From positions 1-20,417 of the IMG/VR virus record IMGVR_UViG_3300035703_001565: DNA of 20,417 nucleotides; one strand, written 5' to 3'. This document shows positions 7,815-14,404 of this stretch, one piece after another. The notes under the pieces are model-generated. The model had not been told where the DNA came from. It did no database searches and saw nothing but the letters and a program-made list of their open reading frames with translations. Positions within the stretch are counted from its first letter, which is position 1. Each line of letters starts with the position of its first letter. Source of the stretch: a virus. The position numbers and the translations under genes were made by a program.

Positions 7815-8483
7815 TTAACCTTTTTTCCAAGCTTCACCTTCTGCTTTTCTTCTACGTGCAAGACCTGCTTCTACATTTGAACCAGGATTTCTGTAGAGGT
7901 AAAGCGCATCGGGAACCAGATCCCACTCTTTATTCTTCAGGCGTTTAGTAATAGTATTAAAGTTATCACCACCGTAAAAACCGGCACCAAGATTATAAGC
8001 AAAGCTGAGCAGAGCTCCTCTTTTTCCATCAGACATTTCCCCCCAATGTGGAATTTTACGAAGTGCTGGGAGAAACTCTTTTTTGCATTGTTCAATTAAA
8101 AGTTCATCCGCTTCTTGTTGAGTCAATGTATCACCAAGTTTGAAAGGTGATCCATCTTTCTTGCGAGTCGAACCCCAACCAATTGTAATTGGAAGTCCGC
8201 CCGTCAGAGGATCAGGATATGCCTTTAAATGACATCCTTCAAACTCCTTGATCAACTTGATGCCCATCTGTGGAACATCATCGCCACCGGTTACAGTAGC
8301 TGCAGCAGCGGCAGGGGCTGGTGCAGCACTAGTCTTTTTTCCGCGATAAATTTCTGCCCAATCAATGTTATCTTCAAGATATTTAACTGGAAGATTATCT
8401 TCCAACCACTGTACAGCTTTTACATGATTTGGATTTTTTTCGTCATAAAATTTAAAAAAGTTGTGTAGATCAATTCTTGCCAT
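7815..8483 (-). CDS. GH24 (T4-type) lysozyme with N-terminal accessory module
   Basis: This 222-aa protein has an N-terminal module (1-48, beginning MARIDLHNFFKFYD), an Ala/Pro linker (51-66) and a GH24 muramidase domain (about 72-222). The T4 lysozyme triad aligns to E82 (IKEFEG), D91 (AYPDP) and T100 (PITIGWGST). The enzyme cleaves the MurNAc-GlcNAc bond of peptidoglycan. The start has GGAGG 5 nt upstream, within the preceding 45-aa gene, which it overlaps by 14 nt. No signal peptide is seen, consistent with release by a holin, with the candidate encoded next. The N-terminal module is shared with the C39-like peptidase two genes upstream, so virion packaging is an alternative to a purely cytosolic endolysin. 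Confidence 0.88.
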   Translation of the reverse strand: MARIDLHNFFKFYDEKNPNHVKAVQWLEDNLPVKYLEDNIDWAEIYRGKKTSAAPAPAAAAATVTGGDDVPQMGIKLIKEFEGCHLKAYPDPLTGGLPITIGWGSTRKKDGSPFKLGDTLTQQEADELLIEQCKKEFLPALRKIPHWGEMSDGKRGALLSFAYNLGAGFYGGDNFNTITKRLKNKEWDLVPDALYLYRNPGSNVEAGLARRRKAEGEAWKKG

Positions 8484-8607
8484 CTTGTCCTCCGAAATAC
8501 TTTTGAAAAAGATCGTTTGCTTCTTTATGTTTCCCGTTATTTGTAAGATCCTTAATAACCTTAAGCATCTTTGCTTTGAAATTAGTCGAAGATCCTTCCC
8601 CAGCCAT
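8470..8607 (-). CDS. 45-aa soluble helical protein, unknown
   Basis: The frame extends upstream to 8670, but the ATG at 8607 is preferred: AGGAGG lies 5 nt before it, inside the end of the C39 peptidase gene (26-nt overlap). The product begins MAGEGSSTNFKAKMLKVIKD and continues as a Lys-rich amphipathic helix ending LFQKYFGGQDGKN, with no membrane segment. It sits between two cell-wall or virion enzymes with the same N-terminal module. Function is unknown. Confidence 0.55.
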   Translation of the reverse strand: MAGEGSSTNFKAKMLKVIKDLTNNGKHKEANDLFQKYFGGQDGKN

Positions 8608-9253
8608 CATTCCCTCCTGGACACCAACGGTGCTTGAGAACTGCTTTGGTGTAAATGGTCTTCTTACCATTTGTTACAGGACCAGTATAGTTATCGTTGA
8701 GGGAACCATATGGATCATTGACAAAATATCCTTTGCCATCTGGAGTCTTACCGATGACTACACACATGTGCCCACCAGTAGGTGCAGATAAAGAACCGCG
8801 ATGTAGGATACCAATAACGACAGGTTTCCCAGCATCAAGACTCTTATCAATGTCAGCAAAAGAAAGATTGTAACTAAAGTGTGACTTAACTCCATAACCT
8901 GCCAGAACCTTTGTCTGAACCGCATGGTCGGTTGTGTCACCAATAGCAAATACTTTCTTGACATATTCATCATCACCTTTAATGCTTCCTGGCTTGAGGA
9001 ATGCAAGACACATAGCACATGACGAACTGTTGCAAGTTCTATGTGCATCTCTGTAGTTATCTACTTGATTGAAGTATGGAACTGCAAGTACTTCTGGAGT
9101 TGGTGGTTTTGTTCTGAAAATACCAATCCAATCAGTCTCTGCGTCATCTAGGAATTGAGCAGGCAGGTTATCCTCTAGCCACTGAACTGCTGCTACATGA
9201 TTTGCATTACCATCATCATAAAATTTAAAAAAGTTATGAAGATCTAGGGTCAT
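8582..9253 (-). CDS. C39-like cysteine peptidase with N-terminal accessory module
   Basis: This 223-aa protein has the same N-terminal module as the lysozyme (residues 3-47, LDLHNFFKFYD and AVQWLEDNLP), a short Pro-rich linker, then a papain-fold Peptidase_C39_2-like domain from about 57 (VPYFNQVDN). The likely catalytic residues are C74 (RTCNSSSCAM), H162 (GGHMCVVIG) and D180 (VNDPYG). Such domains cleave peptides, possibly peptidoglycan stem peptides or a virion precursor protein; the substrate is inferred only. It is the first gene of the late operon, 25 nt downstream of an exact TATAAATA late promoter box. Confidence 0.7.
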   Translation of the reverse strand: MTLDLHNFFKFYDDGNANHVAAVQWLEDNLPAQFLDDAETDWIGIFRTKPPTPEVLAVPYFNQVDNYRDAHRTCNSSSCAMCLAFLKPGSIKGDDEYVKKVFAIGDTTDHAVQTKVLAGYGVKSHFSYNLSFADIDKSLDAGKPVVIGILHRGSLSAPTGGHMCVVIGKTPDGKGYFVNDPYGSLNDNYTGPVTNGKKTIYTKAVLKHRWCPGGNDGWGRIFD

Positions 9254-9319: not shown

Positions 9320-9847
9320 TCATGCAGCAACAGTTTCTCGAACTGTTTCTTTTACATATTCAAAAACAACTTCTGGAGTAGTCGCTTCGTAAGGGTCGGT
9401 GTCTGCGTTGTCCCGTTGCCCCACTTCCACGAATAGTTTTTCGATGATTCCATTATCCACGATCGCAGCATAACGCCAAGAGCGATCACCGAAACCAAGG
9501 TTGGACTTATTAACAAGCATTCCCATAGAACGTGTGAAGTAAGCATTGCCGTCTGGAATGAGTTTGACTTTCTCAATGTTCTGGTCTTGTGCCCAAGCAT
9601 TCATCACAAACCCATCATTAACAGAGATGCAATAAATGTCATCAATGCCAAGTCCAATAAAATCTTCGTACTTCTCTTCGAATCCAGGCAGTTGATAAGC
9701 AGAGCAAGTAGGAGTGAATGCACCAGGCAGACTGAAAATAACCACACGCTTACCATCAAAAAGTTCCGCAGATGTGCGAGTTACAAATTCACCAGACTCA
9801 CGAAAGGTGAATTGAACTTGAGGAACTTGATAACCTTCGCTACGCAT
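9320..9847 (-). CDS. Peroxiredoxin (Prx5/thioredoxin-fold type)
   Basis: The frame opens upstream at 9925, but the ATG at 9847 is chosen because GGAGG sits 5 nt before it and the upstream part overlaps the mini-Hlip gene. The product is about 175 aa, beginning MRSEGYQVPQVQFTFRESGE. The active-site loop FSLPGAFTPTCS holds the peroxidatic Cys (C48) with the conserved Pro/Thr of the PxxxTxxC motif, and SWRYAAIVDNG supplies the conserved Arg. It ends with an acidic/helical tail; no glutaredoxin domain is attached. It should reduce hydrogen peroxide and alkyl peroxides with a host thiol donor. In this position (with Hlips and ferredoxin) it probably limits photo-oxidative damage in the infected cell. 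An ATG at 9859 is an alternative start. Confidence 0.88.
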   Translation of the reverse strand: MRSEGYQVPQVQFTFRESGEFVTRTSAELFDGKRVVIFSLPGAFTPTCSAYQLPGFEEKYEDFIGLGIDDIYCISVNDGFVMNAWAQDQNIEKVKLIPDGNAYFTRSMGMLVNKSNLGFGDRSWRYAAIVDNGIIEKLFVEVGQRDNADTDPYEATTPEVVFEYVKETVRETVAA

Positions 9848-9860
9848 TTTAACCTCCATC

Positions 9861-9964
9861 TCACCAAATTCCGGGGATGATTTGTCCGGTAGCGGCATAG
9901 CTACCCATTGCAGCAATAATACCAATCATTGCTGCCCATCCATTAATACGTTCTGCTCTTTCGT

Positions 9965-9968
<4 letters not shown>
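9861..9968 (-). CDS. hli: Mini high-light-inducible protein (35 aa)
   Basis: A 35-codon gene lies between the 76-aa gene and peroxiredoxin, starting at ATG 9968 with AAGGAG about 8 nt upstream and overlapping the previous stop (ATGA). It is a single chlorophyll-binding-type helix: AERINGWAAMIGIIAAMGSY followed by AATGQIIPGIW, the ending typical of phage and multicopy Prochlorococcus Hlips. In the usual ExxNxR chlorophyll motif the Arg is replaced by Trp (NGW). The thylakoid protein is expected to protect photosystem II or its assembly from excess light. The stop is one base before an alternative peroxiredoxin ATG. Confidence 0.85.
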
Positions 9969-10488
<520 letters not shown>

Positions 10489-10575
10489 TTAATAAGTTTC
10501 TGAGAGTTGATTAACTGAGTGTGCCAGTAAAACAAAAAAGGCGACACTAGTTATTGTAAAGATAATTGAAGTCAT
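10489..10575 (-). CDS. Possible 28-aa single-helix membrane peptide
   Basis: A 28-codon frame fills the gap between hli and ferredoxin: ATG 10575 is 9 nt after the hli stop and TAA 10489 is 3 nt before the ferredoxin ATG. The peptide begins MTSIIFTITSVAFFVLLAHS and ends VNQLSETY: one membrane helix, the size of the small photosystem or cytochrome b6f subunits, though it matches none that I recognise. The same bases carry a near-consensus promoter, so the open frame may be accidental. Confidence 0.4.
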   Translation of the reverse strand: MTSIIFTITSVAFFVLLAHSVNQLSETY

Positions 10576-10581
10576 TGTCAA
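10553..10581 (-). promoter_or_regulatory. Sigma70-type promoter for ferredoxin genes
   Basis: On the minus strand TTGACA (10581-10576) and TACAAT (10558-10553) are separated by exactly 17 nt. They lie just downstream of the hli stop, about 68 nt before the ferredoxin ATG. This would give the ferredoxin-to-peroxiredoxin genes host-RNA-polymerase-driven (early) expression independent of hli. Confidence 0.55.
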
Positions 10582-10584
10582 GTC

Positions 10585-10794
10585 TCAAATTACACCAAAA
10601 AATAGATGACCCGTTAGTGCGTAAGAGATAAAACCAGCCACGATCCCAAGCATAGCCCAGCGACCATTAGCAGATTCGGCTCGTTCAGCATAACTTTTCA
10701 TCCCATACTTCTTTGCGTCTTCGTCGGAAATGTAAACAGGTGGTTCAATTGCCCACATATTCATTTGTCCAAATTCGTTTTTTGTTACAGTCAT
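10585..10794 (-). CDS. hli: High-light-inducible protein (Hlip)
   Basis: This 69-aa protein has a single chlorophyll-binding helix with the full motif ERAESANGRWAMLGIVAGFI, including the Glu and the Asn/Arg of ExxNxR, and a C-terminus SYALTGHLFFGVI. The N-terminal 35 residues are hydrophilic. Hlips bind chlorophyll and carotenoid, associate with photosystem II and protect it under light stress; cyanophage copies are thought to keep photosynthesis running during infection. It lies downstream of the pstS terminator and heads the redox cassette. A possible promoter is TTGTTT, 17 nt, TATACT, with an inverted repeat at the -10. Confidence 0.95.
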   Translation of the reverse strand: MTVTKNEFGQMNMWAIEPPVYISDEDAKKYGMKSYAERAESANGRWAMLGIVAGFISYALTGHLFFGVI

Positions 10795-10907: not shown

Positions 10908-11870
10908 TTACTGACCAATACGACCAACAGCAAGACGTGCTTTGTTCAGAATACTACCAGAAAGAGGAACATATCCAAGGTCATCAGCAATCGATTGTGC
11001 CTTAGTGCTAAGAGCATAATTCAGAGCAGCACGGATATCATCTGTCTTTGCGCCATTACCTTTCTTATAGGCAAGAATCCAAGTCAAGGTAGAAATTGGA
11101 TATGCATTTACGCCAGCAGGATTGGGATTCTCGCCAGCAAGATTAGCATCCAGAGTAATACCATTCAGAGCAGCAGAACCAGTCACGGCAGAAGGTCCAA
11201 CGAACTTACCTGCCTTGTTTTGGAGAACTGCTGCCTGAAGTTTGTTAGCACGAACAAATCCAGTGTTCACATAACCAATCGCACCAGCAGTATTCTTGAT
11301 GGTTCCAGCAACACCTTCATTACCTTTTGAGCCAACACCAGTAGGCCACTTGACTGCTTTACCAACACCAGGTTTCCAACCACCAAAAGCATCCAGAGAA
11401 TTAGTGAATGCAAAAGTAGTTCCAGAACCATCAGAACGATACACCACTTGAATAGGACCAGCGGCACAACCAAGTGCTTTCCAATCCTTAATGCGTCCAG
11501 AGAACACATCAACGGTTTGCTTCTGAGTCAGTTTTAGTTTGCAACCAGGCTTATTATAAGCAACAGCAATCGTTCCACCTACCATAGGAATTTGAACGAC
11601 ACCACGCTTCACCTGTTTTGCTTCTGATGCTTTGATCGGTTCATCAGACGCACCAAAATCGACGGTCCCAGCGATGAACTGACGAACACCAGCACCAGAA
11701 CCGACAGATTGGTAATTAACACGATTTCCAGTAGACGCAGCATAATCTTGGAACCAGCGTTGATAAATTGGTGCAGGGAAGGTGGCACCAGCACCATTCA
11801 AAGTAGATCCAGCAAGAGCGGCAGCAGGAGCGGCAACCAGACCAACAGCAATAAAATTTTTGAGTTTCAT
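10908..11870 (-). CDS. pstS: Phosphate-binding protein PstS
   Basis: This 320-aa protein has a signal peptide (MKLKNFIAVGLVAAPAAALA), the PstS opening STLNGAGATFPAPIYQRW and phosphate-contact segments VGSGAGVRQF, DFGASDEPI and YRSDGSGTTFAFTN. It is the periplasmic substrate-binding protein of the high-affinity phosphate ABC transporter; the permease and ATPase genes are absent here and would be supplied by the host. It is monocistronic, flanked by terminators, with a Pho-box-like repeat array and a -10 upstream (11905-11964). Phage pstS genes in marine cyanophages are known to be induced in phosphate-starved hosts via PhoB, which fits this arrangement. GC content is visibly higher than in the glycan genes. 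Confidence 0.97.
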   Translation of the reverse strand: MKLKNFIAVGLVAAPAAALAGSTLNGAGATFPAPIYQRWFQDYAASTGNRVNYQSVGSGAGVRQFIAGTVDFGASDEPIKASEAKQVKRGVVQIPMVGGTIAVAYNKPGCKLKLTQKQTVDVFSGRIKDWKALGCAAGPIQVVYRSDGSGTTFAFTNSLDAFGGWKPGVGKAVKWPTGVGSKGNEGVAGTIKNTAGAIGYVNTGFVRANKLQAAVLQNKAGKFVGPSAVTGSAALNGITLDANLAGENPNPAGVNAYPISTLTWILAYKKGNGAKTDDIRAALNYALSTKAQSIADDLGYVPLSGSILNKARLAVGRIGQ

Positions 11871-11904: not shown

Positions 11905-11964
11905 ATGATACTGGAAGGAAACCTTAAAGTCCACTAAGGTTTGGTTAAGGTTTTGGTTAACCAA
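11905..11964 (-). promoter_or_regulatory. Pho-box promoter of pstS
   Basis: On the minus strand four related 8-mers occur at 10-12-nt steps: GTTAACCA, CTTAACCA, CTTAGTGG and TTTAAGGT (starting at 11961, 11949, 11938 and 11928). This resembles the cyanobacterial Pho box, direct repeats of PyTTAAPyPy(T/A) with 3-nt spacers. A TATCAT -10 (11910-11905) follows about 11 nt after the array and no -35 is visible, the layout of a PhoB-activated promoter. The host PhoB would therefore control the viral pstS. Confidence 0.7.
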
Positions 11965-11994
11965 TAAAAAAGCACTCCAATCTGGAGTGCTTTT
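11964..11994 (-). terminator. Rho-independent terminator after porin
   Basis: A perfect 11-bp stem AAAGCACTCCA / TGGAGTGCTTT with a 3-nt loop is followed on the minus strand by TTTTTTATT. It is about 22 nt past the porin stop and directly abuts the Pho-box array. The symmetric A/T flanks could let it work in both directions. Confidence 0.9.
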
Positions 11995-12015
11995 ACTCAA
12001 CTTATGAGTAGTTTA

Positions 12016-13482
12016 TCAGAACTTGAAGGTAGTCTGGATTACACCACCCCAGTTAGAGGAATTGCCAGCAAGGCGCTGATTGTCACTTCCATAAATGATA
12101 GCAGGAGTGATGCTGATGTTATCAGATACTTGATACTTGTAGAAAACTTCAAGCATCGTTGCCTTCTCAAGGTCTTCACCAGTAGGGGCCTGACCGATAG
12201 CAACCCCAGCAGAGTTGCCATCAACAAACACATCTTCCCACTGAAGACCAGCAAACCAAGACTGGCTATCGGTAGCAGCACTAGGAGTACCGCTTACAGT
12301 GTTCCAACCATAACCTGCAGAGACAGAAGGAACAATACCAGACTTAGAAGGTTGCCAGTATGCATTCAGGGCATAACCATTAGAGGTTTGGCCAGGAACC
12401 AGAGTACCAGAAGAACCATCAAGACCATTATAGGTACGAACACGAGTGCCTTCAGTACCATAACGATAACCAAATGCAGCACCCCAATTAGTACCACGAT
12501 AACCAATTTGTGCGAGAGTATTCAGAGCACCAGTCTCATCAAACTCACCCTTAGAACTATCTTGACCTGCTTGGGCAACATAGTTTACACCAGCAACAAG
12601 ACCTTTCTTACCATACTGAGCACCGAAACCAGCACCAGTTGCCTTGTTATAGACGCCAGGAGTACCAGCAACAGCAAAGAAGTCAAGAATACCAGACTTA
12701 TATGCAGAAGGCATCCAGGCAATCTCAGTGTTACGAACTGCAGCACCAGCAGTCAGAGTTGCTTTGTTATTGAAAGCAGGGAACTGATAGTACAGACGGT
12801 CGATAACTACATTGTTACCAACTTCACTGGAAGTGTTGTCAGCTTTATCCAGTTTGAACAGAGAAGAACTAGAACCAAACGGATCACTGCTGAAATTAGC
12901 AGAGCGCAGACGAGTCTTGAGAAGATCTTTACCAGTAAATGAAGTATCCAGATTCAGGCGTAGATCGTAGTTGAATGCAGCATGAGTTACATCACCACCT
13001 TTGGTTTGATATTCATCGACATTACCAATTACAAAGTTTACTTCACCACGCAGTTTGGTAGTGGTGGAGAACTGAGTTGCTTCAAGTTGTCCAACTTGGG
13101 CTTCCAGTTTAGAAACAGAACCTTGAATTACAGTCAGTTCATTGCGGAACTCATCAGCAAGACGCTTTAATTCATCAGTTTGTTCAGTTACACGATCAAG
13201 GCAAGCATTTAGAAGTGCTGCTGCCTCATAACGGGTCATTGCCTTAACACCGCCATAAGTTCCGTTAGGATAACCAGCAACGCAACCATAACGCTCTACG
13301 AGGTTGCTGAGTGCCTGATAAGCCCAATCGGTAGGTTGAACATCAGACAGTTGATTGATACTTGTGACCTGTTCAGAAGAATATTGATTGACTGCTGCCA
13401 TATTAAGATCTGCCGCATTCGCAGCAACAGGAGCAACCATTCCCAGAGCAACAGGTGCAAGCATCAGTTGTTTGAGTTTCAT
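12016..13482 (-). CDS. Cyanobacterial outer-membrane porin with SLH domain
   Basis: This 488-aa protein has a signal peptide (about 1-23, ending VAANA), an SLH domain (about 45-97, DVQPTDWAYQALSNLVERYG to RYEAAALLNACLDRV) that binds peptidoglycan-linked polymer, a coiled coil (about 100-136, EQTDELKRLADEF and SKLEAQVGQL), and a long OprB/Som-type beta-barrel with alternating aromatic strands ending in Phe (GGVIQTTFKF), the outer-membrane insertion signal. It is a complete cyanobacterial-type porin, so its gene was probably taken from a host. It has its own sigma70-like promoter and terminator, and lies next to pstS, so it may raise outer-membrane permeability for phosphate or other ions in the infected cell (inference). 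It could also alter the surface against superinfecting phage. Confidence 0.9.
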   Translation of the reverse strand: MKLKQLMLAPVALGMVAPVAANAADLNMAAVNQYSSEQVTSINQLSDVQPTDWAYQALSNLVERYGCVAGYPNGTYGGVKAMTRYEAAALLNACLDRVTEQTDELKRLADEFRNELTVIQGSVSKLEAQVGQLEATQFSTTTKLRGEVNFVIGNVDEYQTKGGDVTHAAFNYDLRLNLDTSFTGKDLLKTRLRSANFSSDPFGSSSSLFKLDKADNTSSEVGNNVVIDRLYYQFPAFNNKATLTAGAAVRNTEIAWMPSAYKSGILDFFAVAGTPGVYNKATGAGFGAQYGKKGLVAGVNYVAQAGQDSSKGEFDETGALNTLAQIGYRGTNWGAAFGYRYGTEGTRVRTYNGLDGSSGTLVPGQTSNGYALNAYWQPSKSGIVPSVSAGYGWNTVSGTPSAATDSQSWFAGLQWEDVFVDGNSAGVAIGQAPTGEDLEKATMLEVFYKYQVSDNISITPAIIYGSDNQRLAGNSSNWGGVIQTTFKF

Positions 13483-13559
13483 AAAAAGTTTGTTTTAGTA
13501 CTAAACGACATACTGGGTAATAATGCAAGTGATTACGACAAGATTACCTCAGGATATGT

Positions 13560-13589
13560 ATTTTAACATTTTCTTTGGGATCATGTCAA
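13560..13589 (-). promoter_or_regulatory. Sigma70-type promoter of the porin gene
   Basis: On the minus strand TTGACA (13589-13584) and TAAAAT (13565-13560) are 18 nt apart, about 78 nt before the porin ATG. The -35 overlaps the stop codon of the GT25 gene. A 10-bp palindrome TTAGTACTAA lies in the leader (about 13496-13505). Confidence 0.6.
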
Positions 13590-14404
13590 GTGCTTTGTTG
13601 GGATGATGAGTTTTCAGTTATTCGTCCAAGATAAGGATCATAATTCATGTGATCCTTAATATTAATAGTTGCTCCAAGTTGTTGCCAATAATTAAGTAAA
13701 GCATCATGAGGTGCTTTGTGAAAGATTCCCAAATGTTCGGGATGAATTGCAGATCCCATTTCTAAGTTATAAAGAAACAGAGGAATAGTATAAGTTTTGC
13801 CAGTTTCTAAAATAGTATCTTCAGAAACTGCTCTGGGTTTTACACCATTATCCAACTTAAACTTATCACCACGAACATGATGTTTCATTAGTTTTGCAGC
13901 ATGGTGTCTGCTTATCAAGTAAATCGCAGCAGAAAAATCATTGATGAATTTTAAATGCAATTTAACATGAATATCTCCTGTACAAATTGTTGTGAGTTGG
14001 ACACAATCCCAATCATAAGGAATTTCGGCAAAAAAGTCAGTCCAAGTAAAATTCCAATACCTTACAATATCAAAATTTACATCATCCTCAAGAATCAAAC
14101 AATAATCATCATTGCTGTTTTCATAAAAATGTTTGATTGCCTTAAGATGCGACATACAACATCCCAATTCATTTTGAGAGACATTATCAGGGATTCTACC
14201 TTTCAAATGACCAGAAACATCATCTATCCTTCCATCATATCCAGAAATACGTGTATGATTTTCAATTTCCCAGTGTTTAAACTGATTTTCCATATACTCA
14301 CGACGATGAGTATCTGCATCAAGGTTTAACCAGTAAACATGAGGAACTCCTTTAAGTTTGTATGCAGACTTATTCTTGTCCATCAGTAATTCTTGTCCAG
14401 TCAT
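13586..14404 (-). CDS. GT25-family glycosyltransferase
   Basis: This protein of up to 272 aa resembles LPS glycosyltransferases of family 25: an N-terminal VYWLNLDADTHRREYMENQF segment (the usual V-x-N-L-x-x-x-x-R-R), NELGCCMSHLKAIKHF (GCxxSH) and the LILEDDV metal/nucleotide-sugar motif near residue 125. These enzymes add galactose or related sugars to lipooligosaccharide or capsule. It is the last gene of the glycan operon. The ATG at 14404 overlaps the upstream GT11 gene by 35 nt; an ATG at 14383 would reduce this to 14 nt, closer to other junctions here. Neither has a strong ribosome-binding site. Confidence 0.85.
   Translation of the reverse strand: MTGQELLMDKNKSAYKLKGVPHVYWLNLDADTHRREYMENQFKHWEIENHTRISGYDGRIDDVSGHLKGRIPDNVSQNELGCCMSHLKAIKHFYENSNDDYCLILEDDVNFDIVRYWNFTWTDFFAEIPYDWDCVQLTTICTGDIHVKLHLKFINDFSAAIYLISRHHAAKLMKHHVRGDKFKLDNGVKPRAVSEDTILETGKTYTIPLFLYNLEMGSAIHPEHLGIFHKAPHDALLNYWQQLGATINIKDHMNYDPYLGRITENSSSQQST

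Follow-up and report, generated by a model that had tools for sequence, protein, structure and literature searches.

A porin gene beside pstS in cyanophages: a probable host-derived phosphate-acquisition cassette

A porin gene paired with pstS

The pstS genes of phages are explained as supporting phosphate supply, yet phosphate must first pass the outer membrane. A locus in which a porin gene lies just upstream of pstS raises the question of whether some phages carry the outer-membrane step too, and our analysis suggests that they do, apparently as a captured host unit whose viral porin has lost a site for a host small RNA. The locus lies in the window, the 20,417-base virus record analysed here, whose gene content (hli, ferredoxin, peroxiredoxin, endolysin and sugar genes) is that of a cyanophage. 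All elements of the porin–pstS finding are on the minus strand, as are a GT25 glycosyltransferase gene upstream (13586..14404; Pfam PF01755, phrog_2835) and hli, ferredoxin, small ORF and peroxiredoxin genes downstream (9320..10794; Pfam and phrog matches), the order of which recurs in relatives.

The porin gene (12016..13482) encodes a 488-residue protein predicted with Pfam and AlphaFold2 to combine an SLH domain, a helical stalk and a 16-strand OprB-type barrel. Pfam places OprB at residues 102–464 and SLH at residues 46–88 (27.1 bits; cut-off 20.8), and a profile search matches residues 22–136 to the SLH region of OmpM1 (8bym, E 3.5e-19). In the AlphaFold2 model there are 16 strands besides a long helix; the barrel strands span residues 141–487, confidence is low for residues 1–88, and the structure matches OprB (4gey) at Z 25.9. 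Together the SLH domain and complete OprB-type barrel identify the predicted protein as a cyanobacterial SLH-OprB (Som-type) porin. Pattern scans, whose load over the whole region is at shuffle level (8 promoters against 5.5, 2 terminators against 2.6), give this gene a sigma-70-like promoter of its own (TTGACA-18-TAAAAT, 11 of 12 matches; 13560..13589) and place a terminator-like stem-loop between porin and pstS (11968..11994, read from 11994), at a position that by eye is the same in most relatives. The initial annotation of a complete porin with its own promoter and terminator just upstream of pstS is borne out. Across 22 phage porins dN/dS is 0.153, and 0.144 for the barrel; such purifying selection speaks for a working pore.

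Pairing with pstS was surveyed in IMG/VR by keeping the best 80 of 250 relatives for a PstS query and the best 80 of 335 for a porin query, and both sets represent nearest relatives only. In 76 of the best 80 pstS contigs a porin gene lies upstream on the same strand, within 700 bp in 68 cases and at 1.38 to 1.82 kb in eight; the other four (L188, L192, L194 and L218) have less than 1.1 kb of upstream sequence, where the contig ends. The pairing proposed in the initial annotation is no peculiarity of one record: porin and pstS are adjacent in many related phages, and the pairing mirrors an arrangement in hosts. Among the best 80 of 335 porin loci pstS follows in 24, is absent from 48 and cannot be judged in eight, absence being called over at least 700 bp of downstream sequence, so that a more distant pstS may be missed. 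Nine porin-bearing records were scanned whole for pstS; one (that of L048) has the gene, beside the porin, and the other eight, the complete S-SRM01 among them, contain none. Pairing in 76/80 against 24/72 loci indicates that pstS accompanies the porin and that the porin does not require pstS; being commoner without pstS than with it, the porin must be useful alone.

The porin occupies two unrelated genomic homes. In home A the unit lies between the GT25 glycosyltransferase gene and the hli/ferredoxin/peroxiredoxin genes, as in the window; in the second it lies between tRNA-Gly and tRNA-Val. In both homes pstS is optional: of the untruncated loci among the best 80 of 335, 13 of 38 in home A and 11 of 32 in the second have it, and two porin loci without pstS have no clear home.

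These counts bear in both directions on a rival account, in which the porin serves general maintenance of the outer membrane, taking the place of host porins during infection, and has no special phosphate tie, pstS being a separate insertion. Such a role would fit the 48 of 72 judgeable loci (best 80 of 335) in which the porin lacks an adjacent pstS and the complete S-SRM01 genome, which has the porin and no pstS at all, and is harder to reconcile with a porin upstream of 76 of 80 pstS genes (best 80 of 250), the other four contigs ending there. The charge of the barrel gives no sign of anion selectivity, which also suits a maintenance gene: net barrel charge is −3 in the window porin, and averages −1.4 over 82 phage porins, −2.1 over the 9 host porins linked to pstS and −4.6 over 110 further ones from hosts. 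Net charge is not positive and carries no such signal; we rejected an argument for phosphate specificity from this measure, and a phosphate preference or selectivity of the porin is no more than a possibility.

S-SRM01 (Kyanoviridae; source, a Singapore reservoir) is the nearest named phage with a window-type porin. Among 50,697 named phage records it alone (two records) gave a full-length porin match, at 71%; pstS is present in 101 of these records. In S-CREM1 and S-PM2 (S-PM2 hits H12–H14) the match is confined to the SLH/stalk part, and the S-CREM1 protein concerned (L002:3935-4813; 292 residues) is annotated as an iron uptake porin. As an isolated phage with the porin and without pstS, S-SRM01 offers a ready model. 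The word 'porin' is absent from the S-SRM01 paper, although the sequence record annotates one, and the passages of the literature found by searching for cyanophage together with porin describe no cyanophage-encoded porin, which does not prove absence.

Pho-box-like sites and the two promoters

The pstS gene (10908..11870) encodes a 320-residue phosphate-binding protein (Pfam PBP_like_2; phrog_5385, E 4.7e-129). Its −10 element, read from the sequence as TATCAT (11905..11910) and TATNAT-like in relatives, lies 10 nt past the last of a series of Pho-box-like repeats (11921..11961). On the minus strand these read GTTAACCA from 11961, CTTAACCA from 11949, CTTAGTGG from 11938 and TTTAAGGT from 11928, in steps of 12, 11 and 10 nt, and matrix score and conservation single out a strong core, CTTAACCA-AAC-CTTAGTGG (11949..11931). 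The middle two are kept throughout the relatives; most of these have a degraded first repeat, and many retain the last. The initial annotation had described four Pho-box repeats at about 11-nt steps before the TATCAT element; the repeats and their position are confirmed from the sequence, but only the middle two stand in exact 11-nt register and are conserved throughout.

We scored these sites with a Pho matrix derived from 23 sites known in cyanobacteria (PMC1906773 Table 1). Of the 40,798 window positions the two-box site takes second place, with a score of 11.5 (p of about 0.004 per 100 nt); the three-box score of 7.0 does not stand out (p 0.027 per 100 nt). Before its −10 element the window pstS promoter has two CTTAACCT-like 8-nt repeats in tandem, spaced at 11 nt, and it follows the published three-box rule for cyanobacterial Pho boxes only loosely. 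Single-sequence statistics fail as sole proof of a Pho box, as 71.5% of 200 whole-window shuffles contain an equally good two-box site. Conservation among relatives is what places the promoter beyond chance: in 60 distinct pstS upstream sequences, which represent 99 mutually related and not independent loci with the window included, every one of the 60 reaches a score of 8 and 57 reach 10, compared with 18.7% and 6.8% of shuffles, and YTTAACYW-N3-YTTADW is kept in 57 of the 60 while the flanks differ. These data support a conserved Pho-box-like pstS promoter as a candidate PhoB target. Passages of a study of S-PM2d caution that by-eye box predictions are not reliable for PhoB binding (PMC10976474). 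PhoB-like regulators occur in all eight hosts searched, none above the curated PhoB cut-off. In two host genomes the best PhoB-like regulator shares a contig with the porin–pstS pair, about 13–16 kb away on contig C4 of G002 and 6 kb away on contig C31 of G004.

The porin promoter differs. Upstream of the window porin the Pho score is 3.2, no better than background, no porin among 76 evaluable pstS-bearing loci scores 10 or more, and porins of pstS-linked host loci reach at most 6.2. The joint PhoB control of porin and pstS envisaged in the initial annotation finds no support in these scores and was rejected for the window porin, and a strong, non-Pho porin promoter in the window is as expected of a maintenance gene. 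A Pho-box-like porin promoter does occur in 15 of 46 evaluable loci without adjacent pstS, which argues against a role in maintenance only; in one of them (L023) it reads CTTAACCAAATCTTAGTTGACA, almost the pstS box, into which a −35 element has grown. Counted as distinct upstream sequences, 7 of 31 porins without pstS have a Pho box, against 0 of 46 with pstS (Fisher p 0.001, uncorrected for kinship) and 0 of 7 from truncated loci. One of the two genes, rather than both, thus seems to be the target of phosphate control, the box appearing on the porin only where pstS is absent.

Host layout and probable origin

The same arrangement exists in cyanobacteria. Of 412 host porins the 80 most similar were kept, from 79 loci, and nine of these loci, from Cyanobium and Synechococcus (L087, L089-L095 and L098), carry the closest porins followed by pstS on one strand. 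In all nine the order is porin, terminator (a terminator-like stem judged by eye), Pho box and pstS, so that host and phage loci are alike in element order and in having the Pho box on pstS and not on the porin. The box before host pstS ranks first to third within its locus in eight of the nine, and eleventh in L089. Six host loci (L090-L093, L095 and L098) also have, by eye, palindrome-like TGTGTTCTGGAACACA repeats about 100–160 nt before the porin, possibly a regulator site. Phage and pstS-linked host proteins share about 57–59% identity for the porin and 58–69% for PstS.

In a quick porin tree of 42 phage and 113 host sequences, the phage porins form one clade (support 98). All nine pstS-linked host porins fall in a 15-row group (support 87) beside that clade (junction 80), and both lie inside a 60-row clade supported at 100, with 94 other host porins outside. 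The sequence nearest the phage clade, L085, is a porin at 66% on a contig binned as Microbacteriaceae, another phylum, with an hli-like gene downstream; it is probably a mis-binned phage contig. A PstS tree, made without one distant sequence (L272), likewise unites the phage proteins (100/99) within a 49-row group that holds all nine porin-linked host PstS, together with eight unlinked host and three marine phage PstS, and in this tree porin-linked and unlinked host PstS are not separated. With so mixed a group, capture of porin and pstS from a host as one unit is likely, not proven.

The shared host layout and the position of the phage porins beside pstS-linked host porins make a phosphate-acquisition cassette of host, picocyanobacterial origin the most likely explanation, and we think it probable for cyanophages related to freshwater S-SRM01. 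The word 'freshwater' refers to the source of S-SRM01 and to the Cyanobium and Synechococcus strains with porin–pstS, which we take to live in fresh water. Grouping of the phage porins with pstS-linked rather than other host porins also counts against the maintenance gene, and with the evidence from pairing and promoters it leaves that account rather unlikely. Porin and pstS might instead be neighbours merely by hitch-hiking in accessory-gene islands with gene turnover: both homes are variable, and a porin tree of 102 rows implies 24 changes of home and 15 of pstS presence, counts that may be inflated on so shallow a tree. In both of two unrelated homes pstS depends on the porin and not the reverse; this and the identical order in host loci speak against hitch-hiking, which seems to us a poor prospect. 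Outer-membrane porins commonly serve as phage receptors, and the porin in home A adjoins sugar-transfer genes, but the suggestion that it alters or masks a surface receptor and excludes other phages, its place beside pstS being incidental, is very improbable, as the porin has no hypervariable stretch (dN/dS 0.06 to 0.27 in 30-codon windows; 22 sequences) and both the pstS pairing and the host layout would go unexplained.

Porin leaders and comparison with known systems

Host and phage porin leaders differ in a site complementary to the small RNA Yfr1. GTGAGG, which complements Yfr1 CUCCUCACAC, lies within 60 nt before the start in 91 of 103 distinct host leaders (9/9 pstS-linked and 82/94 others; several of the 12 other-host leaders without it look like wrong start calls) and in 0 of 55 distinct phage leaders, and is absent from the 60 nt upstream of the window porin. 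Yfr1 itself was found in all 12 host genomes searched. Predicted duplexes with Yfr1 have medians of −19.3 kcal/mol for linked host, −17.8 kcal/mol for other host and −1.9 kcal/mol for phage leaders, compared with −4.1 kcal/mol for shuffled phage leaders; at −2.3 kcal/mol the window leader does not qualify as a Yfr1 target. In Prochlorococcus two porin mRNAs are Yfr1 targets, and in Nostoc Yfr1 represses 10 of 11 confirmed targets, including the porin alr0834 (passages of PMC6778093 and PMC6974561). We infer that phage porin mRNA escapes repression by Yfr1. The phage leaders are AT-rich with no obvious Shine–Dalgarno sequence, so loss of the site could be a mere by-product. Within 130 nt past the porin stop, CCTCAC, the Yfr1 motif core, occurs in 63 of 103 distinct host porins (host loci L085-L163) and 1 of 55 phage porins; in hosts it could be a sponge, an sRNA or a partner for the GTGTGAGG of the leader.

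The window leader (13498..13552, minus strand), which has no Yfr1-complementary site, appears from covariation and a model match to fold into a hairpin whose loop is conserved; GTCGTTTAGTAC follows the hairpin. A hairpin and conserved loop followed by GTCSTWTAGWAC recur in many phage porin leaders, including those of the window and S-SRM01, and the GTCSTWTAGWAC motif is found in 64 of 85 distinct phage leaders. By text pattern these 85 comprise 31 of this class, 26 of another hairpin class and 28 of neither; the window leader fell in the last group and was added by hand to the alignment, which holds 27 leaders picked from one class. Two-sided changes affect 11 of 12 proposed pairs (26 distinct leaders), and 75.8% of leader cells can pair, compared with 67.4% in shuffled alignments (0/500 reach the observed value) and at most 42.5% when the structure is slid; RNAalifold alone gives weak support (−1.39 kcal/mol). 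Searched against 70 loci, a model of the 27 leaders has 28 matches with E no higher than 0.1; every one lies immediately upstream of a porin, 14 belong to the building set and several others are near-copies. On 13 whole records the model gives one match in four and none in nine. Within the records searched the hairpin is seen solely before porins. The window leader scores 60.6 bits, itself being one of the building rows. Immediately downstream, the first 24 porin codons (13410-13482) show unusual synonymous constraint: across 22 sequences pS is 0.11 there, compared with 0.39 overall, which would fit a second role for this stretch of RNA or DNA.

If these elements work as their sequences suggest, low phosphate in the infected cell would lead host PhoB to bind the Pho box and drive phage pstS, while the porin would be expressed from its own sigma-70-type promoter as an mRNA with a leader hairpin and no grip for Yfr1. 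The porin would hold the outer membrane open to phosphate, which PstS would capture and pass to host PstCAB. Some relatives that lack pstS would have the Pho box on the porin instead. More tentatively, the pair may be a virus-borne phosphate uptake unit that reaches across outer membrane and periplasm. Its porin would have shed the site for Yfr1, a conserved cyanobacterial sRNA, and acquired a structured leader of its own, which would leave the outer membrane permeable to phosphate even as Yfr1 continues to act on host porin mRNAs; the DUF680 protein encoded before marine phage pstS would then play a corresponding part.

Like the window, the marine cyanophage cluster DUF680 (PhCOG173)-pstS(-phoA) combines a phage pstS gene with a site resembling a Pho box; it differs in having no porin and in placing the box before the DUF680 gene, whereas the window box directly precedes pstS. 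Box scores before the DUF680 gene are 15.1 in P-SSM2, 14.7 in S-SM1, 14.7 in Syn19 and 9.7 in S-SSM7, an unnamed gene before pstS in Bellamy carries a box-like site (12.4), and the sequence directly before pstS scores 0.6 to 5.2 in seven marine phages. P-SSM4 has no DUF680-like gene preceding pstS, and S-SKS1 has a phrog_417 gene, as in P-SSM2, between tRNA-Gly and pstS, without a box; in following tRNA-Gly the S-SKS1 unit resembles the second home of the porin. In passages of the sources, Pho boxes before PhCOG173, the DUF680 protein, are already reported (PMC9146016) and P-SSM2 pstS is cited as PhoBR-controlled (PMC10976474). In marine cyanophages phrog_417 (DUF680/PhCOG173) thus takes the porin's place before pstS (L241:2065-2421 and L246:1967-2341). 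The position of the porin suggests a possible role for this otherwise unexplained DUF680 protein.

Pseudomonas OprP and OprO are 16-strand barrels like the window porin model, which matches them at Z 23.0 (318 aligned, rmsd 4.4) and Z 23.2 (303 aligned, rmsd 3.3), respectively. The likeness is unspecific, with OprB at Z 25.9 and general porins at Z 21 to 23, and we rejected fold as decisive for a phosphate function. The E. coli porin PhoE is itself PhoB-controlled; the window porin lacks a Pho box, belongs to a different family and has an SLH domain. The two are alike in that PhoE, of the Pho regulon, is thought to serve phosphate uptake (passages of PMC12260270), as the window porin may. In a viral glnK-amtB-ompL locus, too, a gene for a nutrient transporter neighbours one for an outer-membrane porin; that locus differs in concerning ammonium, in coming from a putative Bacteroidetes virus and in having an unrelated porin and a host-like PII regulator gene (passages of PMC8115048). 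Porins of marine Synechococcus WH8102 respond to phosphate in proteomes (passages of PMC3865332).

Rfam at gathering thresholds gives no match within the window. In porin-bearing phage contigs it places abiF RNA (RF03085), above its gathering score, at the head of tRNA clusters (L016:3190-3226 and L072:2868-2904), and wcaG RNA (RF01761; 61.7 bits) at L016:12235-12332. Elsewhere in the window (7815-9253, minus strand), adjoining lysis-type genes for a C39-like peptidase and a lysozyme are alike at the N terminus (LHNFFKFYD...) and match different halves of one 405-residue family, phrog_3617, suggesting a split or duplicated endolysin.
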